A stretch of 64,000 bases of DNA from Amycolatopsis pithecellobii (GTDB lineage Bacteria > Actinomycetota > Actinomycetes > Mycobacteriales > Pseudonocardiaceae). The position numbers and the translations under genes are program-made. Positions 1,249 to 14,803 of this stretch are shown piece by piece. The stretch spans positions 1-64,000 of the forward strand of contig NZ_WMBA01000033.1 in NCBI RefSeq assembly GCF_009707865.1, given 5' to 3'. The stretch's first letter is position 1. Each line of letters opens with the position of its first letter. The notes under the pieces are model-generated. The model saw nothing but the letters and a program-made list of their open reading frames with translations. It had not been told where the DNA came from and searched no databases.

Positions 1249-2211
1249 TCAACCCGGGCTGGGCGCCGTTCCTGCGAGGGGCTCGCCTGGGCGGGAGCGC
1301 CATCGTGCGCCGGTTGCGGCTAGGGCCGTGAGCAGGTCTGCGACGGTGAACATCACGCGCGAGGCGAGGGCGAACGCCAGGGCCTTGCCGGCGGAAATGC
1401 CGTTCGCCGTCAGCATCGCGACCAGTACGGCCTCTCGCACACCGGCGCCGCTGGGCAACAGGAACGCGACCGAACCGGCGGTCATCGCCAGTGCCATCGC
1501 CCCGATGCAGGGCAGTAGGCCGGCGCTACCCGTCAGCAGCCACAGGTGCACACCTTGCAGCGACCACGCGACGAGTGCGGCGCCGAACGCCGTGCCGACG
1601 CGAAGCCCGCTGAACGCCCGTTCCAACGGCGGGCGGCGTAGCAGTTTCAGTGCTCGCGCGGTGATCCATGTCAGCACCCGGGGATGCAACACACCCACAG
1701 CCGGGATCGTGGCGAGCAACCACCATTGTGGGCCGGCGAGCATTGCCAGCTGCGCCGCGGCGATCAGCCCGATGCCGAACTGCACGAACGATCCCGTGAA
1801 CACCCGCGCTCGTGACAGCCCCGCCTTGCGGCCCAGCTCAGCTTGCAGCAGGTACGCCCACAACGAACCCGGCACGTACTTGCCGAGGGCGCCGACGAGG
1901 TTGATCCGCGCGCCTCGCCGGAAACCGACCGGCGGGCCGAGTCCGTCGATCAGGACATGCCAGCCGTAGGTGGACACACCAATGCTCGCCACCAGCGCAA
2001 GCAGGCTCAGCCCCGAGGACGACCACGGAATGTCCGCCAGCGTGCGCCAGAACTCCGACCAGTTGGCGACGAGCGCACGCACCGCGAAACCGACGACGAG
2101 CATGACAGCGACCCAGCGGATCACGCTGTAGCGATCGAAACCGGCGCGGGTCGGCTTCCCGTTGATCACGGTCGGCCCGCCTTCCGTCGGATCGGGAGCT
2201 CTGGGTTTCAT
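1249..2211 (-). CDS. LPG_synthase_TM (UPF0104) family polytopic membrane protein
   Basis: Integral membrane protein of about 320 residues with seven or eight hydrophobic segments, resembling the transmembrane domain of lysylphosphatidylglycerol synthase and the AglD-type proteins of surface glycan loci. The C-terminal aminoacyl-transferase domain of MprF is absent, so it cannot itself make lysyl-lipid; a transport or flippase-like role is an inference. I chose the ATG at 2211 because it follows the stop of the LuxC-like gene by 5 bp. A longer frame would run into that gene. It is the last gene of the six-gene operon that begins with the LpxA-like acyltransferase, so it probably handles a lipid or lipid-linked sugar made there. 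Confidence 0.8.
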   Translation of the reverse strand: MKPRAPDPTEGGPTVINGKPTRAGFDRYSVIRWVAVMLVVGFAVRALVANWSEFWRTLADIPWSSSGLSLLALVASIGVSTYGWHVLIDGLGPPVGFRRGARINLVGALGKYVPGSLWAYLLQAELGRKAGLSRARVFTGSFVQFGIGLIAAAQLAMLAGPQWWLLATIPAVGVLHPRVLTWITARALKLLRRPPLERAFSGLRVGTAFGAALVAWSLQGVHLWLLTGSAGLLPCIGAMALAMTAGSVAFLLPSGAGVREAVLVAMLTANGISAGKALAFALASRVMFTVADLLTALAATGARWRSRPGEPLAGTAPSPG

Positions 2212-2216
2212 CGGCC

Positions 2217-3308
2217 TCAGACTGTGACGGTGATCAGTTTTGTGAACTCGGCAAGGAGATCGTAACCGTCCCACACTGGGGAGAACCTGAGCGCGGATCC
2301 AAAGGGGACGATCCGGTCCACTCCTGCGCTCGCCGCGAACTCGGCCAGTTCCTCGTACCCGAAACCGAAATGAGTCACGGTCTGGTCCTTGCGCCGCACC
2401 TTCGGCACGAGTTCGGCGAGCGAGCTCACCCGGGAATGTGTGAAAACTCCCACACCAAGCCAGTCTCGCACGATGTCCGGGGATTCGAGGCTCGTCACGG
2501 CAGCACTGTCGAAAACGATCTTCTCGACGCGACCGTCCGCGGCTGCGCCATACGTCGAAACGCGTTTCTGTACCGCCATCGCGGAATCAGTGACGTGGCC
2601 TTTTTCTCGCGCGACGGACACGAGTAGCGCCCGGAACTCCGCCGAGGGGTCGCCGTCGCCGACCCAGAAAACCCCGCGTGGCGAGGAACAGGCCGCCTGA
2701 TCGAACCAGTACGCGTCGGTGAAGAAAGCTTCCACCGCCGCCCGCCGCTCCCGTGCGGAAGCCCGCTGCCAGCCCGCGACGGACACGATCGCGAACGAAG
2801 AACGATCGGGAAACGTCAGGTCACGGGCGTGCGGCGCAAGGGGAAACTTCCGCAACGCGGTGACGGAATCGTCGCCGCCCCACAGCACACGCAGATCGGC
2901 GGCGGCCGACAGTTCCGCGGTCAGCTCGTCGTCACGGTCGTAGGTGATCATCTGCTGGGTCCGCGCGATGACCGGTTCTTCCAGCTCATGCCACACATCC
3001 AGAATCGCCCGCGCGGCGGCGCCCGCACGCGGCGAGATCCGTACGACGTTGGTGTTCCCGGCGAGTGCGGACAGCGCCCACGAATAGACGAACACAGTGT
3101 CCACATTGGCCGGTGGCACGTGGAACACCACACCGCGCGGGCGGCGCATACCGTCCAAACGGGACAGTTGTCGCTCGGTTTCCGCGCGCCGCAGGAAAAA
3201 GCCGAGTGACGCCAGCTCCGGATACCGTCTTCCGAGCGCCAGCAACCGCCGCCCGAAGCGGTCCAGGAAAGCGACCACGCGTTCGTCGCCCACCGTCAAC
3301 TCAGTCAT
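2217..3308 (-). CDS. LuxC-like acyl-CoA/acyl-protein reductase
   Basis: 363 residues, aldehyde-dehydrogenase fold, LuxC type: the family reduces a fatty acyl thioester to a fatty aldehyde with NADPH through a cysteine thioester. The expected nucleophile is Cys207 in FDQAACSSP, and the N-terminal nucleotide-binding region has the family string VFHVPPANVDTVFVYS at 61-76. Its start overlaps the LuxE-like stop as ATGA (3305-3308), so the two are translationally coupled, as their luminescence homologues are functionally. No luciferase gene is present, so the aldehyde would serve another end. The exact substrate is unknown. Confidence 0.85.
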   Translation of the reverse strand: MTELTVGDERVVAFLDRFGRRLLALGRRYPELASLGFFLRRAETERQLSRLDGMRRPRGVVFHVPPANVDTVFVYSWALSALAGNTNVVRISPRAGAAARAILDVWHELEEPVIARTQQMITYDRDDELTAELSAAADLRVLWGGDDSVTALRKFPLAPHARDLTFPDRSSFAIVSVAGWQRASARERRAAVEAFFTDAYWFDQAACSSPRGVFWVGDGDPSAEFRALLVSVAREKGHVTDSAMAVQKRVSTYGAAADGRVEKIVFDSAAVTSLESPDIVRDWLGVGVFTHSRVSSLAELVPKVRRKDQTVTHFGFGYEELAEFAASAGVDRIVPFGSALRFSPVWDGYDLLAEFTKLITVTV

Positions 3309-4294
3309 GCCGCGACACTGTCCGAGCAGCCGCGAACTTCCGCTTTCGGCAGACGGCCCAATACCGAAAACCGCTTACCCGGCCAGTCACCGTCGTCGAT
3401 TCCGTGGCACACCCCGAGATCCTCGGTCAGCAGCACATGCCCGGGATACGACCGCGGCAACGTGCTGACCACCTCGATCACCCCGGGAACACCCACCGGC
3501 TGCTCGGCCCAGGTGCGCGGATCGCGGATCACCACGTCCGCGAATTCCGGGCAGTACAAGCCATCGCCGGACGGTCCTTCGAGGAATACCGTGCCGATCT
3601 GCTCGACCATGCCGTAGTAGTTGTGGATTCGCCGGAGCCCGGTGTCCTCAGCGAAGCGCCGCCGGAACTCCGTATTGTCCACGGCTTTCTCGGCGAGTTT
3701 CTTCCAGCCGCCGGAGTGGATCAGAATGCCGTTCGACAAATCGAGCCTATGCTCGCGCGCGACCTCGTACAGATGCTGCCACACCAGGAAGGTGAACCCG
3801 AAGACCAGGAACGGCTCGCCGCCGTGTTCGGCCAGGAACCGTTGCAGCGCAGAGACATCCGGCTTTTCTGATTCGTCGAGCAGGTACACGTGCCTGCGCC
3901 CGAAGTTCGCCATCCCGAGCACTCCGGCACCGCGCGCGGACGACGAGCGCATGATGCTTTTCCGGTCCACCACCAACATCGGCAGCCGCGACGGGCCAAG
4001 TACCCGTTGCAGCGTCGAAGCGAGATGCCGGGGCTGCGCCGCGGCGGCCGCCTTGTCGAGAAAGATCCGCGAAGGCGCGCCGGTCGTGCCCGAGGACGTC
4101 AGCACCCGGAACACCTCGTGCTCCGGAATGCTTTTCAGCGCATGGGTTTTGAACAACCGCACCGGCAACCAGGGCAGGTCCGCCACCGAGGTGAACGACT
4201 CGCCGGTCCCGAGTGCGGACAGGATCCGGTTGTACTCCGGGCAGCGCGCGCGATGATGCGCGGTCAGCTCGGCGAGTTCCGCGACCAGGCTCAT
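3305..4294 (-). CDS. LuxE-like acyl-protein synthetase
   Basis: 329 residues with the LuxE/PaaK-like adenylation pattern: the phosphate-binding loop SSGTTGAPS is near residue 68 and YYGMVEQIG near 225. LuxE enzymes activate a fatty acid as acyl-AMP and pass it to a cysteine before reduction by LuxC. The gene overlaps its upstream AMP-ligase neighbour (4291-4294) and the downstream LuxC-like gene by 4 bp each. Having LuxE next to a second AMP ligase and a dedicated acyl carrier protein is unusual and suggests two acyl-activation steps, one feeding the carrier protein and one the reductase. That division of labour is my inference. Confidence 0.85.
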   Translation of the reverse strand: MSLVAELAELTAHHRARCPEYNRILSALGTGESFTSVADLPWLPVRLFKTHALKSIPEHEVFRVLTSSGTTGAPSRIFLDKAAAAAQPRHLASTLQRVLGPSRLPMLVVDRKSIMRSSSARGAGVLGMANFGRRHVYLLDESEKPDVSALQRFLAEHGGEPFLVFGFTFLVWQHLYEVAREHRLDLSNGILIHSGGWKKLAEKAVDNTEFRRRFAEDTGLRRIHNYYGMVEQIGTVFLEGPSGDGLYCPEFADVVIRDPRTWAEQPVGVPGVIEVVSTLPRSYPGHVLLTEDLGVCHGIDDGDWPGKRFSVLGRLPKAEVRGCSDSVAA

Positions 4295-5688
4295 ATCAGC
4301 TCCGTCAGCGCCTGGTAGTCGATCTTTCCGCTCGCCAGCAACGGCACCACGTCGATCGGCCGCACGTCGAAACCCGACGCGTGCAGGTGCAGCAACTCGC
4401 CGAGCGCGCGCGAAGCCTGTTTGCTCACGTCCTTGGCGATGCCCTCAGCGAACAACACGACCTTGTCCCCGGCCGGAATCGCGGCGACGATGTCGATGCC
4501 CAGGCCGATCGTGCGGGCCGCCTGCTCGAGATCGTCGAGGTTGATCCGGTTGCCGAACACCTTGCCGATGCGCTTGAGCCTGCCGGTGACGAACAGGTAC
4601 CCGTCCTCGTCGAGATAACCGAGGTCACCGGTCGGCAGCACCCCGCCGAGCTCGTCGCCGCGCGCGAGCCCCGCCGCGTCCTCCGCGTACCCCATCATCA
4701 CGTTGGGACCGCGGTAGATGACCTCGCCGGTGATCTTCGGATGCGTGGTTTCCGAGCCGTCGTTCTGCCGGATGCCGAACTGGCCGCCGGGCATCGCCGG
4801 CCCGACCGAAGCCGGTTTGTACGCCAGCTGTTCCGCGGGCATCGTCGCCATCCTCGGGGCGGCCTCGGTTTGCCCGTACATCACGTACAGCCCACCGCCC
4901 GCCGACCGCATCCGGGTGTCGAACTCCGTGACCAGGTCGGGACGCAGCCGCCCGCCCGCCTGGGTGAGCGCGCGCAGCCGCGGGTAACGCGCCGGATCGA
5001 AATCCAGGCGCCGCAACATCTCGTAGTGGTACGGAACTGCGGCGATCGAGGTACAGCCGCTCCCGGTCACGGCATCCCAGAAGGGGCGGCCGAGGATCCC
5101 GGACGGCTCGATCACCACCGTCGCGCCGTGCGCGAGGTGCGAGTTCAGCACCGACATCCCGTAGCTGTAGTGCGGCGGCAGGCTCGTCGGCGCCACGTCG
5201 TCCGGCCCGATGCCCAGCACCTCGGCGATCGCGTGCGCGTTGGTCAGCACCGCGCGGCGGGACAGCCGGGCGAACTGCGGGGCGCCGGTGGAACCACTGG
5301 TGGCCAGCAGGACCGCCAGGTCCGGATGCGGGCGCACCCCCTCGGTGGCCGTCCGTACCCAATCCTCGCCCTCGGCGCGATACCCCGCCGGCGGCGCCGC
5401 ATCCGGCGCGCCGAGCACGGCACCCGGCTGGAATCGGACGATCAGTTTGCCCAGCGACTCGGCCCCCAGCGCGGGATCGATGAGCGCGACCGCGCGTTGC
5501 GCTTCGAACGCACCGAGATACCGCAGCAGACCGGTCAGCCCGATCGGCACCCGGGCGAACAACACGCCTTCGGGCAGCGCGGAAAGCGCTTCCACGATCC
5601 GGTTCACCTCGCGGACCAGCTCGTCGTGCTCCAGCGTGCGACCGGAAGTCACATCGACGAGCCTGGCGCCGTCACCGATGAGCGTCAC
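4291..5688 (-). CDS. AMP-dependent acyl ligase (ANL superfamily)
   Basis: 465 residues, adenylate-forming enzyme. Visible family motifs are TSGSTGAPQ near 130 (P-loop-like), YGQTEAAPRM near 273, TGDLGYLDEDGYLFVTGR near 355 (hinge region) and a C-terminal GKIDYQ containing the lysine used in adenylation. It should activate a carboxylic acid as acyl-AMP and load it onto CoA or a carrier protein. An acyl carrier protein gene lies directly upstream (13 bp), so loading of that protein is the likeliest role. It is slightly short for the family, with a compact N-terminal domain. Confidence 0.85.
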   Translation of the reverse strand: MTLIGDGARLVDVTSGRTLEHDELVREVNRIVEALSALPEGVLFARVPIGLTGLLRYLGAFEAQRAVALIDPALGAESLGKLIVRFQPGAVLGAPDAAPPAGYRAEGEDWVRTATEGVRPHPDLAVLLATSGSTGAPQFARLSRRAVLTNAHAIAEVLGIGPDDVAPTSLPPHYSYGMSVLNSHLAHGATVVIEPSGILGRPFWDAVTGSGCTSIAAVPYHYEMLRRLDFDPARYPRLRALTQAGGRLRPDLVTEFDTRMRSAGGGLYVMYGQTEAAPRMATMPAEQLAYKPASVGPAMPGGQFGIRQNDGSETTHPKITGEVIYRGPNVMMGYAEDAAGLARGDELGGVLPTGDLGYLDEDGYLFVTGRLKRIGKVFGNRINLDDLEQAARTIGLGIDIVAAIPAGDKVVLFAEGIAKDVSKQASRALGELLHLHASGFDVRPIDVVPLLASGKIDYQALTELI

Positions 5689-5701
5689 TCCGACAGCCTC
5701 C

Positions 5702-5935
5702 TCAGCCGCGTAACTGTGTCACCAGGTCCAACGCGACCTTGAAACTGCTGAGATCGAGCACCTGGTCGGTGTCCAGCTGGATGTCGAACTCGTCCTCGAT
5801 GGCGGCGACGAGCGTCATATGCCCGACCGAATCCCACTCCTCGGTACCGCGGTACTCGAGCCGCTGGACGTCCACGTCCTGGTCGAGGTCCAGCGCCGCC
5901 ACGAAAACGCCTCGCAGGCGCTGTTCGATCTCCAC
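5702..5935 (-). CDS. Acyl carrier protein
   Basis: 77 residues, acidic, with the phosphopantetheine attachment site at Ser36 in EEWDSVGHM. The pattern WDSxxH/M is more typical of stand-alone carrier proteins of specialised pathways than of the fatty-acid synthase AcpP (DSLD). It lies 3 bp after the LpxA-like gene and 13 bp before the AMP ligase, so it is probably the acyl donor for the former and the acceptor for the latter. Ends at TAA/TGA region near 5702. Confidence 0.9.
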   Translation of the reverse strand: MEIEQRLRGVFVAALDLDQDVDVQRLEYRGTEEWDSVGHMTLVAAIEDEFDIQLDTDQVLDLSSFKVALDLVTQLRG

Positions 5936-5938
5936 GTC

Positions 5939-6637
5939 TCAGTCCTTCCGCTCTTCCCACGCTCGCACCAAAGTAGAGAGCCCGGCGGGCAACGCGTACA
6001 TCAGCCCATCGGGTGGAAGTCGCGTTTTGCCCTTGAGCCACGGTTCGAGCTGATCAATCGTGTCCTGGTCGAGGCCTAGCCGAGTCAGCCCGACCACGTT
6101 GAGGCCGGTGACCCGGGCAGGGTTGCCGACTGCGATCGTGAAAGCCCTGACCTCGCGGCGGACGGCCGCGCCCATGCCCACCATGGCGCCCGGTCCGATC
6201 CGCACCTGCTGATGGACGATCGAGCCCATCCCGAGGTTGGCTCGCGACCAGACGTGCACATGCCCGCCCAGCACGACATTGGAGGCCAACGTCACCCCGT
6301 CCCCGATGAGGCAGTCGTGCGCGACATGACTTCCTCGCAGGTAGTAGCCGTCGTCGCCGAGCACAGTGGGACGCCGCGTGCCCTGATGCACGCTGACGTA
6401 CTCCCGGATCCGGTTGCGGTGCCCGATGCGCACGCCCGCGCCCGTGGGATCGTCGTCCCACGCCGGATGCGGGCCGTCCCGGTCCTCGGCCGGCGTGCCG
6501 ATGGTGACATGCGGGCCGATCCAGTTGCCGTCGCCGATGACCGTCGGCCCGGCGACGACCGTGTACGGCCCGATGACGTTGGCGGTCCCGAGCTCGACAC
6601 CCGGCCCCAGCACCGCGGTCGGGTGGATGCGATTCAC
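5939..6637 (-). CDS. LpxA-like acyl-ACP: nucleotide-sugar acyltransferase
   Basis: 232 residues of hexapeptide repeats forming a left-handed beta helix. It matches LpxA over its whole length: IHPTA at the N-terminus, IGHRNRIREYVSVHQGT at 71-87, and SHVAHDCLIGDG at 103-114 with the LpxA catalytic base equivalent at His107. GMGSIVHQ and AVGNPARVTGLNVVGL follow, and a short C-terminal helical part ends it. LpxA transfers an acyl chain from ACP to UDP-GlcNAc, or to the 3-amino group of UDP-GlcNAc3N in bacteria with GnnA/GnnB. A lipid-A enzyme is unexpected in a Gram-positive actinomycete; here it heads an operon with its own carrier protein. Confidence 0.85.
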   Translation of the reverse strand: MNRIHPTAVLGPGVELGTANVIGPYTVVAGPTVIGDGNWIGPHVTIGTPAEDRDGPHPAWDDDPTGAGVRIGHRNRIREYVSVHQGTRRPTVLGDDGYYLRGSHVAHDCLIGDGVTLASNVVLGGHVHVWSRANLGMGSIVHQQVRIGPGAMVGMGAAVRREVRAFTIAVGNPARVTGLNVVGLTRLGLDQDTIDQLEPWLKGKTRLPPDGLMYALPAGLSTLVRAWEERKD

Positions 6638-6656
6638 GGGCAGCCACCCTACCTAC

Positions 6657-6762
6657 TGTGCCGTTCGTTACTAATCCGACCACAGTCACGGCTATCCGGC
6701 TTGCGCGGCAACGGTTACGTATTGCTCAGGGTCCGCCTACTTTTGGTCGGATTAGTAAACGA
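6657..6762. repeat. Dispersed palindromic element, copy A
   Basis: Two 13-bp arms pair perfectly: TACTAATCCGACC (6669-6681) and GGTCGGATTAGTA (6745-6757). Flanking and internal sequence (TGTG before the left arm, TCCGCCTACTTTTGG before the right arm) is shared with a second copy at 62785-62886. It fills the divergent region between the LpxA-like gene and the DegT aminotransferase, so it probably contains or modifies their promoters. It could be a small non-autonomous mobile element, a structured RNA or a regulatory palindrome; the sequence alone does not decide. Confidence 0.7.
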
Positions 6763-6780
6763 CACCGGAGGACTCGCCAG

Positions 6781-7887
6781 ATGATTCCCCTCACCGTCGT
6801 CGACGTCCGCGACGCCGAGCCGCTCGTGATCGAGGTGCTGCGCTCGGGGAGTCTCGCCCAGGGGCCGATGGTCGCCCGGTTCGAGGAGGCGTTCGCGCGC
6901 GTCGCGGGCACGGCACACGCGGTCGCGGTGAACAACGGGACGACGGCGCTGGTGGCGTCGTTGCAGGCGCTGGGGCTGCGGCCGGGCGACGAAGTGGTCA
7001 CGTCGCCGTTCACGTTCGTGGCCACGCTCAACGCGATACTGGAGGCAGGTGCGACGGTTCGGTTCGCCGACGTGTCGCGGACGGACTTCGCACTCGACCC
7101 GGAGGCGGTCGCGGAGGTGATCGGCCCGCGGACGAAGGTGCTGTTGCCCGTGCACCTGTACGGGCAGCCGGCGGACATGGGCAAGCTCGCGCCGCTGGCC
7201 GCCGAGCACGGGCTGCGCATCGTCGAGGATGCCGCCCAGTCGGTCGGCGCGTCCTTAGAGGGCAAACCGGCCGGATCGTACGGTTTGGGTTGCTTTTCCT
7301 TGTACGCCACCAAGAACGTCACCACCGGCGAAGGCGGCATGATCACCTGCGATGACGACGAGGTGGCGGACCGGCTGCGGTTGCTGCGTAACCAAGGCAT
7401 GCGCGCGCGGTACGCGTACGAAACGGCCGGGCACAACTACCGGATGTCGGAACTGCACGCGGCGGTCGGCATCCCGCAGCTGGCGAAGCTCGACGGGCTG
7501 ATCGCCATCAGGCAACGCAACGCGCGCCAGTTGTCCACCGGGCTCGCCGGCGCGCCGGGCCTAGCCGTCCCGGCCGTGTTGCCGGGCCGTTCGCATGTCT
7601 GGCATCAGTACACGGTGCTGATCGGGCCGCACGCGATGCTTTCGCGCGAGGAACTCATCTCGGAGCTGACCGAACGCGGAATCGGGACCGGGGTGTACTA
7701 CCCGAAGCTGGTGTTCGATCACGAATGCTTCCGCGATCATCCGCAGATCCCGGCGGTCCGCCCGCAGGAATTCCCGGTGGCGCACCGGCTGAGCCAGGAA
7801 GCGCTTTCCCTTCCGGTACATCCGGCGCTGACGGAGTCCGATGTGGACACTGTCGTGCGTGAGGTCAGAGAGGCGCTCGGCGCATGA
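6781..7887 (+). CDS. DegT/DnrJ/EryC1/StrS sugar aminotransferase (GnnB-like)
   Basis: 368 residues, PLP-dependent sugar aminotransferase. The Schiff-base lysine is Lys178 in SLYATKNVTTGEGG, and EDAAQSVGA at 149-157 is the cofactor-contacting aspartate region. These enzymes aminate a keto sugar nucleotide. The ATG at 6781 was chosen because GGAGG lies just upstream, and an in-frame extension to 6658 would be translated from the palindromic element. The stop overlaps the next gene (ATGA, 7884-7887). The partner is a Gfo/Idh dehydrogenase, and an LpxA-like gene is divergent. This trio matches the gnnA-gnnB-lpxA set for 3-amino-3-deoxy-GlcNAc; the substrate remains inferred. Confidence 0.88.
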   Translation: MIPLTVVDVRDAEPLVIEVLRSGSLAQGPMVARFEEAFARVAGTAHAVAVNNGTTALVASLQALGLRPGDEVVTSPFTFVATLNAILEAGATVRFADVSRTDFALDPEAVAEVIGPRTKVLLPVHLYGQPADMGKLAPLAAEHGLRIVEDAAQSVGASLEGKPAGSYGLGCFSLYATKNVTTGEGGMITCDDDEVADRLRLLRNQGMRARYAYETAGHNYRMSELHAAVGIPQLAKLDGLIAIRQRNARQLSTGLAGAPGLAVPAVLPGRSHVWHQYTVLIGPHAMLSREELISELTERGIGTGVYYPKLVFDHECFRDHPQIPAVRPQEFPVAHRLSQEALSLPVHPALTESDVDTVVREVREALGA

Positions 7888-8774
7888 GGCTGGCACTGGT
7901 CGGTACCGGCACGATGGGCCGGTTGCACGCGCGGACGATCGCCGCGACGGAACGTGCTTCGCTGGCAAGGGTGATCGAGCCGCGGGCGACGGCCGGCCTC
8001 GCGTGCGCCGCCGAGTTCGGCGCGAAGTGGGCACCCTCGCTGGACTCACTGTCCGATGTGGACGCCGTGGTACTCGCTTCCGCGACGGAGTCGCACCACG
8101 AGCTCGCATTGGAAATCCTCAAGCAGGGCAAGCCGTTGCTGCTCGAAAAGCCGGCCGCCAGCGACCTCGCCGCGGCCGGGGAAATCGTTCAGCTGTCGGA
8201 AAACCTCGATGTGCCCATGATGTGCGGGTTCGTCGAGCGGTTCAACCCGGCAGTGCTGGCCGCGACGCGTCTCGTGCAAAACCCGGTGCACCTGATCGCG
8301 CGCAGGCACGGGCCCTACGCGCCACGGATCCGCACCGGTGTCGCGTGGGATCTGCTGGTGCACGACGTCGATCTGGCGATCCGGTTTTTCGGCGGTGAGC
8401 CGGCCAGGATCACTTCGACGGCCGGGTACTTCCACCCGCTGTCGGCGGCCGGCGCGGAGGACACTGTGGACGCCACGATGTCCTTCCCCACCGGGATGGC
8501 CACAGTATCGGCTTCCCGTGTGGCGCAACGGAAAACGCGGAGGATGACGATCTCGGAGCTGGACCGCGTGATCGAGGTCGACCTCGTCCGGCAGGAGGTC
8601 CTGGTCACGCGGCAGTCGGCGGTCGAGGCCTGTCCGGTCACCGGGTGCGAGCCGTTGGTGGCTCAGCTGGAGCACTTCCTGGATCTGGTGGCGGGCAAGG
8701 CGGACGCGGCTGCCGAACGCGCGTCGGTGCTTCCCGCGCACCGGGTCATCGCCCGGGTGCTGGACGTCAGGTGA
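7884..8774 (+). CDS. Gfo/Idh/MocA NAD(P)-dependent sugar dehydrogenase (GnnA-like)
   Basis: 296 residues. The N-terminal Rossmann motif GTGTMGRLHA is at 8-17, the family EKP motif in LLLEKPAAS follows near residue 89, and VHDVDLAIRFFG near 160 carries the usual active-site His-Asp. It would oxidise a sugar nucleotide to the ketone used by the coupled aminotransferase upstream. The start overlaps that gene by 4 bp. Its tail overlaps the 3' end of the convergent hexapeptide acyltransferase (8767) by 8 bp. A role like GnnA or WlbA is inferred from the pairing. Confidence 0.85.
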   Translation: MRLALVGTGTMGRLHARTIAATERASLARVIEPRATAGLACAAEFGAKWAPSLDSLSDVDAVVLASATESHHELALEILKQGKPLLLEKPAASDLAAAGEIVQLSENLDVPMMCGFVERFNPAVLAATRLVQNPVHLIARRHGPYAPRIRTGVAWDLLVHDVDLAIRFFGGEPARITSTAGYFHPLSAAGAEDTVDATMSFPTGMATVSASRVAQRKTRRMTISELDRVIEVDLVRQEVLVTRQSAVEACPVTGCEPLVAQLEHFLDLVAGKADAAAERASVLPAHRVIARVLDVR

Positions 8775-9372
8775 AGTCTCCAGCGGGGGAACCCCATGGC
8801 GTGATGGTGATTTCGCGGCGCCTGGCGTTCTCCGCGCGCACGCGTTCGGCCTCGGCCTTGATGTAATCCTCGTCGTAGCGCTGGAAAACACGCGCCGGAT
8901 TGCCGGCGACGAGGCAACGCTCGGGAACATCCTTGGCCACCACGGAATTCGGCTGCACGGTGACGAAATCGCCAAGGGTGACACCGGGCATGATGACCGC
9001 GTGCCCGCCGATGAAGCAGCCCTTGCCGATGGTGACCGGGGTGCGCTCGATCAGGTCGCTGCCGGGGTGGTTCTCCAGCATCATGTTCGCCAGCCAGCTG
9101 GAATGCGTGAACACGAGCGCCCCGACGCCGATGCTGGTGTGCTCGCCGATGTTCAGCCCGCCGCTCGCGTCGAGCACGGCGTCCTCACCGATCCAGCAGT
9201 GCTCGCCGAGCCGCAGATGCTCCGGGCTGATGATCTTCGCTCGCGCGCGAATCCTTGTGGTGGCTGGCAAACCGAGAAAACGGGCGCGCTCGGCGTCGTT
9301 GAGGTACTGGCCGACCAGCTCGGTCAGGATTTCCGGGCGCAGCCGGTTGCTGCGCTCGTCGTCGAAGAACAC
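8767..9372 (-). CDS. Hexapeptide-repeat O-/N-acetyltransferase
   Basis: 201 residues, left-handed beta-helix acetyltransferase of the maltose/galactoside type. IGEHTSIG and HAVIMPGVTLGDFVTV hexapeptides lead to the characteristic end VAGNPARVF near 175. I chose the GTG at 9372 because GGAGG sits 4 bp upstream and the frame before it translates as low-complexity arginine-rich sequence. This start lies inside the last 49 bp of the glycosyltransferase gene. It is the last gene of the operon starting at 12737 and probably acetylates a sugar or lipid-linked sugar made there. Confidence 0.85.
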   Translation of the reverse strand: MFFDDERSNRLRPEILTELVGQYLNDAERARFLGLPATTRIRARAKIISPEHLRLGEHCWIGEDAVLDASGGLNIGEHTSIGVGALVFTHSSWLANMMLENHPGSDLIERTPVTIGKGCFIGGHAVIMPGVTLGDFVTVQPNSVVAKDVPERCLVAGNPARVFQRYDEDYIKAEAERVRAENARRREITITPWGSPAGDFT

Positions 9373-10526
9373 AGTGCCTCCAGTAGTCGCAGGTGTCGCT
9401 TGGCCACGACGTCGAGCGCGAAGTGCTCGCGCACCAGTGCACTCTGCCGCCGCGCGAGCTCCGCGCGCCACGCCGGATCGTCGAGCAGCCCGATGACGGC
9501 CGCCGCGACCGCGGCTGCGTCGTCCGGCGGGACGAGCAGGATATTCTCGCCGTTGCGCAGCTTCACGCCGGGGTAGTTGTCCGCGGCGACCGAGGCGATG
9601 GTCGCGGTACCGGACAGCATCGCCTCCAACGACGCGGTTCCGCAACCACCGTTGAGGTCGTGCGTGACGATATCCGCCGCGGCGAAGTACGACGGAACCT
9701 CGTTACGCGGCACGGCGCCACGGACGATGATCGCGTCCCGCACGCCCAGTTCCTCCGCGCGGCGCAGGAACTCGTCGTGATAGACGCGCCCGACGACCGT
9801 CACCTTCGTGTCCGGGTGCTTCGCCAGGATCGACGGCAGCGCCTCGATGAGGGGCAACCGGTTCCGCAGCGGGATGACGTGCCCGAGTGACACGATCGAC
9901 GGGTTTTCCTTGTGCTGGGGCGAGATTTCCGCGCGGTCGAAGAACTCCGTGTCGATCGGGATCGGCAGGTGCACCGAGTTCGCCGGCCCTGTGCCGTAGC
10001 GGCGCGCGCAGTAGTCGGCGCCGAGCTTGTCGAGCAAGATGTAGTACGGGTCGATCCGGCGCAGCACCGGTTTCACCAGCACGCCATCGAGTACGCGGAA
10101 AATCGTGCGATACCAAGGGTTTTCGCTGACCAGTAGCGTGTGGACGGTCAGCAAGATCGGCACGCCGATCCGTCGTCCGTACCGGCCCGCGAGCCACGAC
10201 AGGTCGAAGAACTGGCCGTGCAGGTGCAAGGCGTCGGGACGGAAATCGTCCAGCAGCCGGCGGATCCGCCGCCGGTTGCCCGGGACGAACGCGGTGAAGC
10301 TGAGGTCGAAGTCGATCGACAGGCCCAGTTTCGGCATCTTCACCGCGGGCAGCCGGACGACGCGGTACCCGTCGCGCGCCTCCACCGCCGGCGCTGAACC
10401 GTACGCCGCGGTCAGCACGAGCACGTCATGCCCGGCCTCGGCGTACTCGCCCGCGAGCGCCGCGGCCATGTGCGCACTGCCGCCCACCCGCGGCGGGAAG
10501 AAGTTGTTGACGACGACGATGCGCAT
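9324..10526 (-). CDS. Glycosyltransferase, GT4 (GT-B) family
   Basis: 400 residues. It begins MRIVVVNNFFPPRVGGSAHM, the classic GT4 N-terminus with a glycine loop for the acceptor domain. The C-terminal donor-binding domain has NGGCGTASLEAMLSGTATIAS with the conserved Glu of the E-x7-E region near 330. The ATG at 10526 fits this domain start; the in-frame extension to 11138 would cover the neighbouring gene and is not protein-like. It lies 179 bp downstream of the epimerase, and that gap holds no gene. It would transfer the amino or acylated sugar to a lipid or glycan acceptor; the acceptor is unknown. Confidence 0.87.
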   Translation of the reverse strand: MRIVVVNNFFPPRVGGSAHMAAALAGEYAEAGHDVLVLTAAYGSAPAVEARDGYRVVRLPAVKMPKLGLSIDFDLSFTAFVPGNRRRIRRLLDDFRPDALHLHGQFFDLSWLAGRYGRRIGVPILLTVHTLLVSENPWYRTIFRVLDGVLVKPVLRRIDPYYILLDKLGADYCARRYGTGPANSVHLPIPIDTEFFDRAEISPQHKENPSIVSLGHVIPLRNRLPLIEALPSILAKHPDTKVTVVGRVYHDEFLRRAEELGVRDAIIVRGAVPRNEVPSYFAAADIVTHDLNGGCGTASLEAMLSGTATIASVAADNYPGVKLRNGENILLVPPDDAAAVAAAVIGLLDDPAWRAELARRQSALVREHFALDVVAKRHLRLLEALCSSTTSAATGCARKS

Positions 10527-10705: not shown

Positions 10706-11638
10706 TTATCGGCCGTAGGACTCGACGAGTTGGCGCATCCCTTGCTCCACCGGGATATTCGGCGACCAGCCGAGAATCTCCCTGGCGCGGCTGATGTCCG
10801 CGGCCCGCCGCGAGACGAGTACTTCGCGCGGGTTGAACTCGGGCTCGACGTCGGCGCCGACCGCGTCGATGAGGATCTTCGCCAGTGTCGCGATGGACGT
10901 GTCGATCCCGGTGCCGATGTTGACCGGCACGTTCGCCCGGCTCGATTCCAGTGCCAGCACAACGGCTTTCGCGAGATCGGTGACGTGCACGAAGTCCATT
11001 GACTGCTCGCCGCGCCCATCGATCACCGGCGGTTTGCCCGCGCGCAGTCGCTGGATGAAATGGTTGATCACCGACGTGTAGTACGCCTCGATCTTCTGTC
11101 CCGGCCCGTACACGTTGAAGAATCGCAGTGCCAGCCACGAAAGTCCGTGCCGGCGCTGGTAGAACCCGAGTAGGTCCTCGCCCGCGCGTTTGCTGATGCA
11201 GTACGGCGTCAGTGGATGCAGCGGATCGTCCTCGTGCATCGGCAGCCGTTCCGGCTCTCCGTACACCGAGGCCGACGACGCGAACACCAGCCGCTGCACG
11301 CCTTCCGCCGCCGCGGCGGCGAACACGTTGTGGTTGCCGGTCATGTTGATGTCGATCGACTCGTGTGGGTCCGCAATGGACTTGTTGATCGACACGGTCG
11401 CGAAGTGGATGACATGCGTGCAGCCACGGATCGCCTCCCGCACCGCACCGCCGTAGCGCACGTCCGCCTCGACAAGGTCGACCCGGCCGGTCGCCACGAA
11501 CTCGTCCACGCGTGCCCGGTCACCGCGGGTCAGGTTGTCGAAGATCCGCACCGAGTAGCCGCGCTCCAGCAACAGCGGAATCGTATGTGCGGCAATGAAA
11601 CCCGCGCCCCCGGTGAAGAAAACCTTGGGTTCAGTCAC
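10706..11638 (-). CDS. NAD-dependent sugar epimerase/dehydratase (extended SDR)
   Basis: 310 residues. The Rossmann motif is TGGAGFIAAH near residue 9 (the usual GxxGxxG), the catalytic Ser is in SSASVYG near 118, and the catalytic Tyr and Lys are in YCISK near 142-146. The architecture is that of UDP-glucose 4-epimerases and dTDP-sugar modifying enzymes. Its start overlaps the end of the DegT aminotransferase gene by 8 bp, so the two are co-expressed. It probably epimerises or dehydrates the nucleotide sugar that is aminated by that neighbour. Confidence 0.87.
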   Translation of the reverse strand: MTEPKVFFTGGAGFIAAHTIPLLLERGYSVRIFDNLTRGDRARVDEFVATGRVDLVEADVRYGGAVREAIRGCTHVIHFATVSINKSIADPHESIDINMTGNHNVFAAAAAEGVQRLVFASSASVYGEPERLPMHEDDPLHPLTPYCISKRAGEDLLGFYQRRHGLSWLALRFFNVYGPGQKIEAYYTSVINHFIQRLRAGKPPVIDGRGEQSMDFVHVTDLAKAVVLALESSRANVPVNIGTGIDTSIATLAKILIDAVGADVEPEFNPREVLVSRRAADISRAREILGWSPNIPVEQGMRQLVESYGR

Positions 11639-12737
11639 GTAATGCTCCTCGGACGGCGTCGATCACTCGGTCCACCTGTTCGTCGGTCAGTTCGGCGTGC
11701 ATCGGGATGGCCAGGTGCCTGCGGAAAACATCGGCCGACACCGGTAGTGGCCGCTGCCGGCCGTAGACCGGCTGCAGGTGCGAGGCGTAGGTACCGAACG
11801 TGCACTGGACTCCGCGCGCCCGCAGCTCACGCAGGACGCGGCCGCGGTCGACCCGCGGCGCGAGCAGCAGAAGGTAGCTCTGCCAAGGATGTTCGCGATC
11901 GGGCAACGTGGCCGGCACCTGTGCGGCGTCGAGTTCGGCGAACGCCTCGGTGTACCGCTTGGCAACAGACCGGCGCGTGGCCAGCAGGCCCGGCAGCCGA
12001 TCGAGCTGGACGTCCAGGATCGCGGCCTGCACATCGGACAGCCGGAAGTTGTAACCCAGCTCGTCGAACACCGGCACGTCCTCGGCGCGGCCGAACGCGG
12101 GTGCGATGCCGTAGGAATGCAATTTGCGGGCACGCTCGATGAGTGCCACGTGGTCCGACACGAGCGCCCCGCCTTCCCCGGCGGTGATGCCTTTGCGGCC
12201 GTGGAAGGAAAAGGCCGCGAGGTCGGCGAGGCTGCCGGCGGGGCGGGTGCGGTACGTCGCGCCCGCCGCACACGCCGCGTCCTCGACCAACCACAGTCCG
12301 TGGCGATCGGCTATCGCACGGTAGTCGTCGTAGTCGCCAGGCTGCCCGGCGAGATCGACGACGACGATCCCGACCGTGCGCGGACTGATCGCGGCCTCGA
12401 TCGCGGCCGGGTCGGCGCAGAACGAGTCCGGCGTGATGTCCGCGAACACCGGTGTCGCGCCGGTTTGCAGCACCGCGTGGCCGGTTGCGGGGAAGGTGTA
12501 GTCCGCGACGATGACCTCGTCGCCCGGCCCCGCGCCGAGCACGCGCAACCCGAGGAACAGGGCGGAACCACAATTGCTCGTGGCGAGCGCGTGCGCGGTT
12601 CCGGTGAACTTCGCGAGGCGCTCCTCGAATCGCCGGCAGGCCGGCCCCGCACCCGCCAGCCATCCCGAGGCGAACACCTCGGCGACGGCGGCGAGTTCGA
12701 GTTCGCCGACCGTCGGTCGGCCCAGCGGAATCGTCAA
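11631..12737 (-). CDS. Second DegT/DnrJ/EryC1/StrS sugar aminotransferase
   Basis: 368 residues, same family and length as the gene at 6781 but clearly diverged. The PLP lysine is Lys182 in FSFHGRKGITAGEGG, and VEDAACAAGA is at 151-160. The FHGRK context is typical of the branch making 3- or 4-amino-dideoxy sugars. It starts an operon with epimerase, glycosyltransferase and acetyltransferase. The locus thus has two sugar aminotransferases in two transcription units, so either two amino groups or two amino sugars are made. Confidence 0.88.
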   Translation of the reverse strand: MTIPLGRPTVGELELAAVAEVFASGWLAGAGPACRRFEERLAKFTGTAHALATSNCGSALFLGLRVLGAGPGDEVIVADYTFPATGHAVLQTGATPVFADITPDSFCADPAAIEAAISPRTVGIVVVDLAGQPGDYDDYRAIADRHGLWLVEDAACAAGATYRTRPAGSLADLAAFSFHGRKGITAGEGGALVSDHVALIERARKLHSYGIAPAFGRAEDVPVFDELGYNFRLSDVQAAILDVQLDRLPGLLATRRSVAKRYTEAFAELDAAQVPATLPDREHPWQSYLLLLAPRVDRGRVLRELRARGVQCTFGTYASHLQPVYGRQRPLPVSADVFRRHLAIPMHAELTDEQVDRVIDAVRGALRD

Positions 12738-12803: not shown

Positions 12804-13739
12804 TTACAGATCGAGAACGAGCCTCTCGCCGCAGGCTCGGGAGACGCAAATCATCATCGTGTCGTTCGCGGCCTGCTCCTGTTCGGACAGTACCGAGTCG
12901 CGGTGATCCGGGACGCCGTCGAGCACCGGCGTCTCACACGTCCCGCAGATCCCGCCCTGGCACGAGGACAGCACGGGCACACCGGCGCCTTCGACCGTGT
13001 CGAGGATCGACTGCTCAGCGGGGACCGTGAGCGTCATCCCGGAGCGGGCGAGCTCCACTTCGAACTCGGTGCGCTCACCGCTGTTTTCCTTGGCGGCGAA
13101 GCGTTCCACGTGCAGACTGAGCCACTCCGGTACCGCGCGTTCGGCCGCGAGCAGCAGCGGTTCCGGGCCACAGCAGTAGACCGCGGTGTCTTCGTATGCC
13201 TCGTCGAACAGCGATTCCAGGTCGAGCAGCCCCGTTTCGTCCTGCGGCAGCACCGACACCCGGTCGCCGTACTTCTGGCTCAGCTCCTCGTGGAAGGCCA
13301 TCGACGACCGGGCCCGCCCGCCGTACACGAGCTGCCAGTCGGCGCGGCTCGCGTCGGCGGCGGCGATCATCGGCACGATCGGCGTGATACCGATGCCTCC
13401 CGCGATGAACAGGTAACTCTCGGCCGGAACGAGCGGGAAATGGTTCCGTGGCCCGCCGATCCGGACCAGGTCGCCGGTTCGCAGTCCGTCGTGCACGAAG
13501 GCCGAACCACCCCGGCCGTCCCGCTCACGCAGGACGGCGACCTCCAGTACCGAGCGGTCACCGGGATCCCCGCACAGCGAATATTGCCGCACGAGATTTC
13601 CCAGCATCAGGTCCACATGCGCACCAGGCTCCCACCGCGGCAACTCGTCGCCGTCGGGGTGGTGAAACGTCAGCCGCACCACGTCGTCAGCGATCACGTC
13701 CTTGCGCGCGAGCAGCACGTCGAATTCGTTGACAGTCAT
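12804..13739 (-). CDS. Phthalate-dioxygenase-reductase-like flavoprotein with 2Fe-2S domain
   Basis: 311 residues. The FMN/FAD-binding beta barrel has QYSLCGDP near 65, the NAD-binding domain starts at GGIGITPIVPMI near 115, and a C-terminal plant-type ferredoxin domain has CQGGICGTC with a fourth cysteine in MMICVS. This is the VanB/phthalate dioxygenase reductase layout, which passes electrons from NADH to a Rieske oxygenase. No oxygenase gene is adjacent, so the partner is elsewhere. The ATG at 13739 starts the recognised domain; the upstream extension is arginine-rich and unlikely. Confidence 0.88.
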   Translation of the reverse strand: MTVNEFDVLLARKDVIADDVVRLTFHHPDGDELPRWEPGAHVDLMLGNLVRQYSLCGDPGDRSVLEVAVLRERDGRGGSAFVHDGLRTGDLVRIGGPRNHFPLVPAESYLFIAGGIGITPIVPMIAAADASRADWQLVYGGRARSSMAFHEELSQKYGDRVSVLPQDETGLLDLESLFDEAYEDTAVYCCGPEPLLLAAERAVPEWLSLHVERFAAKENSGERTEFEVELARSGMTLTVPAEQSILDTVEGAGVPVLSSCQGGICGTCETPVLDGVPDHRDSVLSEQEQAANDTMMICVSRACGERLVLDL

Positions 13740-13927: not shown

Positions 13928-14803
13928 CTAGCCAAGCGTAAATCTGACCCCGATACGGCCAGGATATCGTTCCGGCCAGGTGTGAAGTATTTCGTAATGG
14001 GGCAACGGCCAGGCACACACGACGATATTGAGTCCGCGACCGAGCTGCGCCATCAGCCGCTCCACGAACTCGGCGGCCTGGCCGGTGTCGAACGGCCCGC
14101 GCCGCGCCTGGAAGAACACCATGCCACGGTTCGACATCGCGAGCATGACATTGACATCACCGAAGTAGTCGCGGAACCCCGTCATCAGGTTCTGCTTGCT
14201 CGCCACCGGACCGCGCCGGGAGTCCGGCGGCCGGTGCGGTCGCGTCCAGGCCAGCCACATGACGTCGGCGTCGGCGAGCCAGTCGTCGTCGACGCCGGGC
14301 GTGCGCTGTCGCGGAACCACCGAAGTGACCCGGCCGCGCATCATCTCCAGCAACCGCGGTTCCTCGATCAGTCCCCAGCGAATGAGGTACTGCGACACCG
14401 TTGGCGGGCTGAGCAGGATGCCGAACTCCCGGTTGACCAGCTCAGCGATCGCCTGCCGCGTCCACAGCCGGTGCGGCATACCGTGCTGATCCGGCGTACC
14501 GTCCACAATGGTCTTGACTGTGTTCGCCTGCTGTGCCGGGGAAAGCGCGAACTGCTCGCCGGGCCGCCGGCCGCGTCGCTTCGGGCGGAAGGCCTCGTCA
14601 CCGTCCTTCTGGTACGCGGCGACCCACGCCCCGACAGTTTTCCTTGATACGCCGAACAACCGCGCGACCTCGGATCGGGTGACCCCGGCCTCGACGGCCG
14701 CGACGGCGCGCCGACGGAGCTCTTCCAGCGCTTCCGCCGAAAGACTCCTGGCGTCCCGAGTGGCCATGTCCAAGCCCTGAATGGTGGTGGTTGTCCTGTT
14801 CAC
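13928..14803 (-). CDS. IS630-transposase-derived DNA-binding protein 1 (catalytic residues lost)
   Basis: 291 residues from a GTG at 14803 with GGAG upstream. Residues about 20-135 are the paired helix-turn-helix of IS630 transposases (GVTRSEVARLFGVSRKTVGA, then LWTRQAIAELVNREFGI and LIRWGL). The rest aligns with the DDE fold, but the acidic residues are gone: the first motif reads VMWLAWTRP, and the region of the second catalytic Asp reads IVVCAWPLPHY. It cannot be an active transposase, and I see no terminal inverted repeats. It ends the copper block, has a paralogue at 21572, and is probably a domesticated regulator. Confidence 0.75.
   Translation of the reverse strand: MNRTTTTIQGLDMATRDARSLSAEALEELRRRAVAAVEAGVTRSEVARLFGVSRKTVGAWVAAYQKDGDEAFRPKRRGRRPGEQFALSPAQQANTVKTIVDGTPDQHGMPHRLWTRQAIAELVNREFGILLSPPTVSQYLIRWGLIEEPRLLEMMRGRVTSVVPRQRTPGVDDDWLADADVMWLAWTRPHRPPDSRRGPVASKQNLMTGFRDYFGDVNVMLAMSNRGMVFFQARRGPFDTGQAAEFVERLMAQLGRGLNIVVCAWPLPHYEILHTWPERYPGRIGVRFTLG

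Follow-up and report, generated by a model that had tools for sequence, protein, structure and literature searches.

Gene Organization at the LpxA-Like Locus

The stretch of DNA analyzed here (the window, 64,000 nt in its entirety) sits at the start of a contig of the 7.9 Mb genome of Amycolatopsis pithecellobii. Its positions 1249–8774 carry a gene for an LpxA-like acyltransferase together with genes for an acyl carrier protein (ACP), an AMP-forming acid ligase (AMP ligase), LuxE-like and LuxC-like enzymes and a membrane protein, all six on the minus strand, followed on the plus strand by a DegT/DnrJ aminotransferase (DegT1) and a Gfo/Idh dehydrogenase. An earlier prediction made from the sequence alone (the original prediction) had named these eight genes, and all were found at the place and in the order it gave. 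The locus is read here as an envelope glycan locus, in which Gfo/Idh and DegT1 would make a 3-amino sugar nucleotide, the LpxA-like enzyme would N-acylate it, and the ACP, AMP ligase, LuxE and LuxC genes (the cassette, which in most close relatives includes a short-chain dehydrogenase/reductase, SDR) would supply the acyl group. Taken as a whole, this reading is moderately probable. The eight genes are:

1249..2274, minus strand: membrane protein of the LPG_synthase_TM family (PF03706, 56 bits; in 35/35 close loci)
2217..3308, minus strand: LuxC-like acyl reductase, Cys207 kept (PF05893, 99.7 bits)
3305..4294, minus strand: LuxE-like acyl-protein synthetase, C-terminal Cys323 kept (PF04443, 154.7 bits)
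4291..5688, minus strand: AMP-forming acid ligase (PF00501, 124 bits)
5702..5935, minus strand: ACP, phosphopantetheine Ser36 in WDSVG (PF00550, 20.9 bits, cut-off 20.8)
5939..6637, minus strand: LpxA-like acyltransferase, 232 aa, His107 (NCBIfam LpxA model, 177.8 bits)
~6757..7887, plus strand: DegT/DnrJ aminotransferase, DegT1 (PF01041, 388.7 bits; start approximate, open reading frame (ORF) open from 6658)
7884..8774, plus strand: Gfo/Idh dehydrogenase (PF01408; NF040723, 136.6 bits)

Three bases separate the stop codon of the LpxA-like gene from the start of the ACP gene. The membrane protein (1249–2274) may serve as a lipid-sugar flippase or in a membrane glycosyltransferase step.

Conservation of the Gene Set among Relatives

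The best 80 of the 312 loci encoding relatives of the LpxA-like protein were kept. The close loci comprise the window and 34 others (L002–L035, from Amycolatopsis and one Tamaricihabitans), whose LpxA-like proteins are 65–91 percent identical; the nearest named relatives are Amycolatopsis sp. GM8 (91 percent) and A. alkalitolerans (89 percent). Each of the eight genes, together with a GT4-type glycosyltransferase gene located further along the window, was present in 35/35 close loci, and the eight-gene set is therefore not a chance array. An SDR gene between those for the ACP and the AMP ligase was found in 32 of the 35, the exceptions being the window, L002 and L003. When the A. pithecellobii genome was searched for an orthologue of this SDR, none was found, the best of 152 matches being 48 percent identical.

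Within 249 genomes of the family, group 1 was defined as the 58 genomes with an LpxA-like match of at least 284 bits, a cut chosen after inspection of the table, in which 14 further genomes stood at 176–231 bits. LuxE was counted in 52 genomes at E <1e-100 (53 if the omitted G222 match, 1.5e-21, is included). Both LuxE and group-1 LpxA were found in 43 genomes, LuxE only in 9, LpxA only in 15 and neither in 182, and in 43/43 genomes with both, the two genes shared one contig at a distance of 2.3–5.7 kb. When 396 genomes were sampled across the phylum, four besides that of A. pithecellobii (G437, G532, G526, G599) gave LpxA-like matches above 100 bits, so that the family is centered on the Pseudonocardiaceae. 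Among 33 diverse LpxA-like loci (40 loci minus L139–L143, L147 and L148), DegT1 and Gfo/Idh both passed their thresholds within 20 kb in 26; in 16 of these, DegT1 was divergent and at most 1.8 kb from LpxA.

The LpxA-Like Protein Belongs to a Clade Distinct from Lipid A LpxA

The LpxA-like protein is a true relative of LpxA, in a clade distinct from the LpxA of lipid A synthesis. The NCBIfam LpxA models gave 177.8 bits (cut-off 226) and 164 bits (cut-off 231.05), both below the equivalog cut-off. LpxA chains of the PDB matched with 127 bits (4eqy), 105 (1lxa) and 101 (3hsq), down to 76–78 for the weakest, and non-LpxA chains scored far lower, namely 28.7 bits for 3mqg, which we take to be WlbB, and 33.4 for QdtC. 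The AlphaFold (AF2) model, with a mean predicted local distance difference test score (pLDDT) of 90.9, showed a left-handed beta-helix with the catalytic His and Asp; its top Foldseek matches were LpxA, the best being that of Pseudomonas aeruginosa. The predicted catalytic AHDC motif was confirmed at residues 106–109, and H107 and D108 were invariant in 23 aligned group-1 rows. Counterparts of Escherichia coli LpxA residues H122, H125, D126, H144, H160, Q161, N198 and R204 were kept. The position of E. coli G173 is occupied by Met, as in P. aeruginosa LpxA, where this residue presumably goes with C10-selectivity. The protein has 232 residues compared with 262 in E. coli LpxA. Five alignment columns passed a loose rule for tracking cassette presence, none of them convincingly.

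The tree was built from 76 rows, LpxA-type only, which included 4 of the 34 close loci L002–L035, 32 of 46 Gram-negative loci (14 Pelagibacterales rows left out) and 38 of the 40 diverse loci (L115 and L148 left out). The short actinobacterial LpxA-like proteins and one Saprospiraceae protein stood apart from lipid A LpxA, on a branch with 100/99 support, and six other actinobacterial proteins (L139–L143, L147) fell on the lipid A side. The original prediction of an LpxA homologue thus holds as regards kinship and catalytic residues; the protein itself lies outside the lipid A clade. Placement among ordinary O-acetyltransferases finds no favor in the models and PDB chains, the best of which were LpxA, with the tree itself covering LpxA-type rows. 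Pcryo_0615 (PDB 8e62), a diamino-sugar N-acetyltransferase, matched with 117 bits and joined the window clade (100/99) on a long branch, its placement with canonical LpxA being still allowed by the approximately unbiased test (p-AU 0.141). No LpxC match was obtained in the A. pithecellobii genome (the control matched in 4/14 genomes), and we therefore do not expect it to make lipid A.

Around the five Pseudonocardiaceae genes at L139–L143, whose products fall on the lipid A side, the 20 kb stretches gave no match for DegT1, Gfo/Idh or LuxE.

Candidate Sugar Enzymes

The best PDB match of the Gfo/Idh protein was 7bvj/7bvk (91.6 bits), which we take to be GnnA of Acidithiobacillus ferrooxidans, compared with 24.4 bits for 3q2k, presumably of WlbA type. 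The model of UDP-N-acetylglucosamine (UDP-GlcNAc) 3-dehydrogenase, NF040723, was matched with 136.6 bits, below its cut-off of 450. We propose that Gfo/Idh is a GnnA-like sugar nucleotide 3-dehydrogenase. DegT1 carries ATKN at 184, which is read as the pyridoxal phosphate lysine motif, and its PDB relatives, which include both C3 and C4 aminotransferases, are not diagnostic; a GnnB-like 3-aminotransferase is the proposed role. For the GnnA/GnnB pair of the original prediction, the Gfo/Idh match to 7bvj and the linkage of both genes to LpxA-like genes (26/33 diverse loci) give partial support.

Five cassette-free relatives (L128, L129, L135, L136, L150) have a gene of the UDP-GlcNAc 2-epimerase family near the LpxA-like gene, with GT2 enzymes nearby, which suggests a manno-configured variant of the sugar.

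Exchangeable Enzymes in the LpxA Position

In two genomes (G009, G214), the gene standing where LpxA would otherwise be, with the ACP cassette on one side and DegT1 on the other, encodes a protein whose N-terminal domain is a PylC-like ATP-grasp. Such a ligase was found in 4/249 family genomes, none of which had a group-1 LpxA, and in 4/4 it lay in the LpxA position beside DegT1 and Gfo/Idh; the cassette was present in two of these genomes and not in the other two. PylC-type ATP-grasp enzymes couple carboxylates to amines. Since such an enzyme replaces LpxA, the position is most simply read as an amide-forming step. That this step acts on a 3-amino sugar nucleotide is likely, because Gfo/Idh and DegT accompany the LpxA-like gene in 26/33 loci and the ATP-grasp ligase takes its place in 4/4. 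In the Gammaproteobacteria L160 and L161, which have pse-like genes (by eye), a GNAT gene stands directly before the ACP gene of the same cassette.

The ACP, AMP Ligase, LuxE and LuxC Cassette

Twenty copies of the cassette (18 for the SDR), chosen by hand, were aligned. ACP S36, LuxE C323, LuxC C207, and AMP ligase K455 and T130–G132 were invariant in the 20 copies, as were SDR N110, S138, Y151 and K155 in the 18; S36, C323, C207, K455 and the four SDR residues are presumably catalytic. At E <=0.01, the sole PDB match of both the LuxE-like and the LuxC-like protein was 7xc6, in the former case its LuxE chain. The AMP ligase, which probably loads the ACP, matched best in sequence to 3wvn/3wv4, which we take to be VinN, a 3-methylaspartate ligase, and then to oxalate-CoA ligases, so that the ranking (five distinct PDB chains, E <=1e-20) leans towards a dicarboxylate. 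Its structure model was mediocre (pLDDT 70.7), and among the best 50 of 644 Foldseek matches (E <=0.001), dicarboxylate, aryl, amino-acid and fatty-acid ligases were mixed; the dicarboxylate idea therefore gets no support from the fold search. Next to motif A5, Arg279 is matched by an Arg of 3wvn in the alignment and is no more than a candidate for carboxylate binding.

In other actinomycete clusters, LuxE/LuxC/AMP-ligase genes occur with methyltransferase and P450 genes (L162 and L164, the P450 of L164 by eye) or with SDR, ACP and GNAT genes (L163). These are possibly natural-product loci.

Related Systems in Other Bacteria

When 369 genomes were sampled from the Gammaproteobacteria, the class of Methylovulum, the LuxE protein of the window found matches in six. 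In three of these (L159–L161), the protein was 43–51 percent identical in the genome search and 41–50 percent in the comparison of the loci, and in all three the genes for ACP, SDR, AMP ligase, LuxE and LuxC followed in this order. The flagellin islands of Aeromonas Group II likewise carry ACP, 3-oxoacyl-ACP reductase, AMP synthetase, luxE and luxC downstream of pseH (PMC7874193), and the same protein types are described in flagellin islands of Enterobacteriaceae (PMC4875605). The claim that no system with this set had been described was accordingly too strong. The Aeromonas order is that of 32/35 close loci, and the window itself, like L002 and L003, departs from it in lacking the SDR. For the Aeromonas cassette, fatty aldehyde channeling and a liposugar component have been suggested (PMC7874193); a product is given in the available text neither for Aeromonas (PMC7874193) nor for the Enterobacteriaceae (PMC4875605). 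The sugar branch differs, being that of pseudaminic acid in the flagellin islands and Gfo/Idh-DegT-LpxA here, which in relatives lies near arabinogalactan genes.

In Acidithiobacillus and Leptospira, GnnA, GnnB and LpxA lead to a lipid A with amide-linked chains. This system shares with the present locus the three enzyme types, namely a dehydrogenase, an aminotransferase and an acyltransferase of the LpxA family, which here too would serve a 3-amino sugar nucleotide; unlike it, the A. pithecellobii genome gave no LpxC match, and the LpxA-like protein is shorter, belongs to a separate clade and is accompanied by a dedicated ACP cassette. The functions of GnnA and GnnB have been described (PMC5644692). 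Pcryo_0615, an N-acetyltransferase for a diacetamido-2,3-dideoxy sugar, resembles the LpxA-like protein in its short LpxA-like fold, its NLGMG and GMGA signatures and its side of the best tree, and differs in sequence (34–37 percent identity in Foldseek). It presumably uses acetyl-CoA, and we know of no cassette alongside it. GriC/GriD, a carboxylic acid reductase of Streptomyces griseus (PMC10179220), likewise couples an acid-activating enzyme with a reductase in an actinomycete, a likeness at the level of described function; ACP or sugar genes are not implied for it in the text available.

An open literature library returned no work linking LuxE, LuxC, ACP, polysaccharide and LpxA, and none on 8E62, on 4-hydroxybutyryl pseudaminic acid in flagella or on a dihydroxybutanoyl group. 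The titles it listed held nothing pertinent on diacetamido-sugar LpxA-like N-acyltransferases or on arabinogalactan in Amycolatopsis, and it gave general reviews only on LpxA in Amycolatopsis. The gene combination, the exchange at the LpxA position and the link of a Gram-positive locus to a Gram-negative cassette are new to us.

Adjoining Genes and Likely Destination of the Glycan

Linked genes run on from the eight-gene set to ~12.7 kb:

8767..9390, minus strand: second hexapeptide transferase, of the maltose/WcaF O-acetyltransferase type (Hexapep and NCBIfam; start approximate)
9324..10526, minus strand: GT4-type glycosyltransferase, 400 aa, within a longer ORF (orthologue L112:14997-16208, PF00534)
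10706..11638, minus strand: NAD-dependent epimerase/dehydratase (PF01370, 185.5 bits)
11631..12737, minus strand: second DegT aminotransferase, DegT2 (PF01041, 353.7 bits)

The epimerase (33/35 close loci) and the second hexapeptide transferase (32/35) are linked to the locus and not constant in it. DegT2, which probably serves a second sugar branch, had copies more than 60 percent identical in 29/34 close relatives, and the other stretches may stop short of it.

The surroundings were also viewed in 46 clustered loci of relatives, chosen by hand, in 20 kb stretches. A HAD hydrolase was found in at least 17, serS in at least 14, UDP-galactopyranose mutase in at least 8, PlsC in at least 6, PAP2 in at least 5 and a GlfT2-like gene in at least 4. 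We take several of these to be arabinogalactan genes. Because the loci of relatives lie near such genes, an envelope glycan of the wall or membrane is the likely destination of the product.

A FAD/2Fe-2S ferredoxin reductase (Fer2) gene at 12804–13739 adjoins DegT2 and is absent from the stretches of the 34 close relatives, of which only 8 extend far enough beyond a clear DegT2; it may be a lineage-specific partner or an unrelated neighbor. The next ORF directly behind it (13928–14803), on the outer margin of the locus, looks by eye like a transposase of the IS630 type that carries a helix-turn-helix at its N terminus. At the contig end, positions 1–1210 are non-coding by appearance and hold several short tandem arrays, namely a 26-base unit in 5.5 copies at 100 percent match (1–143), a 57-base unit in ~2 copies (628–767) and a 36/18-base unit (948–1025). 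The promoter scan gave 1 promoter-like site (shuffled mean 1.2) and the terminator scan 10 terminator-like sites (shuffled 7.1, sd 2.8), nothing above chance in either case, and PADLOC returned zero matches for the four proteins submitted.

Evaluation of the Proposed Pathway and Its Alternatives

In the proposed pathway, Gfo/Idh would oxidize C3 of a UDP-N-acetylhexosamine (probably UDP-GlcNAc), DegT1 would add an amino group at C3, and the LpxA-like enzyme would acylate the amino group so introduced. The ACP and AMP ligase would supply an unusual acyl group, which LuxE and LuxC, with the SDR in most close relatives, would tailor, and the GT4 and membrane proteins would build or export the glycan. 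Gene content, conservation, the retained catalytic residues, the separate clade and the exchange at the LpxA position are observed, and the identity of the sugar, its N-linkage, the acyl group with its ACP donor and the destination are proposed. The N-acyl 3-amino sugar is likely. Acyl-ACP is a plausible donor, given the adjacency of the LpxA-like and ACP genes.

Several observations weigh against this pathway. The LpxA-like protein has Val at the position of E. coli E200 and no clear equivalent of K76. The title of Pcryo_0615 names an acetyltransferase, which makes acetyl-CoA a possible donor at the present locus as well. DegT1 is nearer to the C4 type (perosamine synthase, 237 bits) than to WbpE (184) or QdtB (161). 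The complete cassette was found in only 14/33 diverse loci, DegT1 and Gfo/Idh failed to pass threshold together in 7/33, and 15 of the 58 group-1 genomes had no LuxE match; the Fisher test for co-occurrence of LuxE and group-1 LpxA (p = 1.5e-26) disregards relatedness. Two of the four ATP-grasp loci retain the cassette, though an ATP-grasp enzyme needs no acyl-ACP, and the cassette may therefore not feed the amide step, or not only that. At L133, L167 and L168, the cassette directly adjoins DegT1, the LpxA position being empty, and the LpxA-like gene present ~8–17 kb away belongs to a different subgroup; at the gammaproteobacterial L159 no acyltransferase was recognized before the cassette. 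The contig of the window ends before any arabinogalactan genes, whose nearness is known from the relatives only.

The donor is at issue if the LpxA-like protein, in the manner of Pcryo_0615, is an ordinary N-acetyltransferase that depends on acetyl-CoA. Its product would then be a 2,3-diacetamido sugar, and the cassette would serve another step of the glycan or another metabolite. The match to 8e62 in the same clade, the short protein, the cassette-free group-1 genomes and the ATP-grasp loci with a cassette speak for this, yet the ACP gene starts three bases past the LpxA-like stop codon, LuxE keeps its close distance in 43/43 genomes, a GNAT holds the equivalent place before the Gram-negative cassette (L160, L161), and the tree still allows 8e62 with canonical LpxA; we regard it as somewhat unlikely. 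The sugar is at issue if the same three enzymes act on another nucleotide sugar, for example UDP-N-acetylglucosaminuronic acid (UDP-GlcNAcA; WbpB/WbpE/WbpD type) or a 4-amino sugar, the amide still being formed. Here 8e62 belongs to a 2,3-diamino sugar pathway, whose sugar we take to be a uronic acid, and the top models of DegT1 are PseC (NCBIfam) and perosamine synthase (PDB). Gfo/Idh, on the other hand, is nearer to 7bvj than to 3q2k and matches the UDP-GlcNAc 3-dehydrogenase model, if below cut-off, and no UDP-sugar 6-dehydrogenase occurred among the neighbor families run against Pfam, a scan not aimed at this enzyme. This alternative is unlikely.

An altogether different use of the cassette would be the release of an aldehyde by the LuxC/LuxE pair for a natural product or signal, the sugar genes being mere neighbors. 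The copies among methyltransferase and P450 genes at L162 and L164 fit this idea, as does the precedent of GriC/GriD as an actinomycete carboxylic acid reductase (PMC10179220). It is nevertheless highly unlikely in view of the linkage to sugar genes in 35/35 close loci and to pse-like genes at L160 and L161. Lipid A type O-acylation of UDP-GlcNAc, yielding a lipid X-like glycolipid in a Gram-positive bacterium, would agree with the LpxA-like fold and active site, but with no LpxC, the 100/99 branch separating the protein from lipid A LpxA, and partner genes that fit an amino sugar, we consider it extremely improbable.

Possible Chemistry of the Acyl Group

For the N-acyl 3-amino sugar pathway, a specific chemistry may be sketched, in which the cassette would carry out a half-reduction on the carrier protein and so turn a C4 dicarboxylate into a hydroxyacyl group for the amino sugar. 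The AMP ligase would load one carboxyl of malate or succinate onto the ACP, LuxE would activate the other carboxyl, LuxC would reduce it to the aldehyde, and the SDR would convert the aldehyde to the alcohol, so that the ACP would end up carrying a dihydroxybutyryl or hydroxybutyryl group. The transfer of this group to the amino sugar would then fall to an amide-forming enzyme that varies with the locus (a GNAT with pse genes, an LpxA-like protein with 3-amino sugars). Half-reduction of an ACP-held dicarboxylate would explain the presence of two acid-activating enzymes with one reductase. The Group II strain Aeromonas piscicola AH-3, which carries the cassette, is described as having a 376.14 Da pseudaminic acid derivative on its flagellin and, in addition, a 102 Da moiety of unassigned nature. 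By calculation, the Pse5Ac7Ac residue (316.127) plus C2H4O2, that is, with one acetyl replaced by C4H6O3, gives 376.148, and C4H6O3 itself (102.032) is perhaps the 102 Da moiety. An O-methylglyceryl group is isomeric with the C4H6O3 acyl, and the match to 376.14 is a mass fit and not an identification. The scheme is quite unlikely to hold as drawn, and is offered tentatively.

Implications

If the proposed pathway is true, an LpxA-family enzyme would serve envelope glycans in Gram-positive Actinomycetota without lipid A, and a cassette of flagellar islands would be tied to a Gram-positive envelope locus, with a concrete and testable chemistry. An acylated amino sugar would then be predicted in the wall or membrane of Amycolatopsis, the genus that makes vancomycin and rifamycin.

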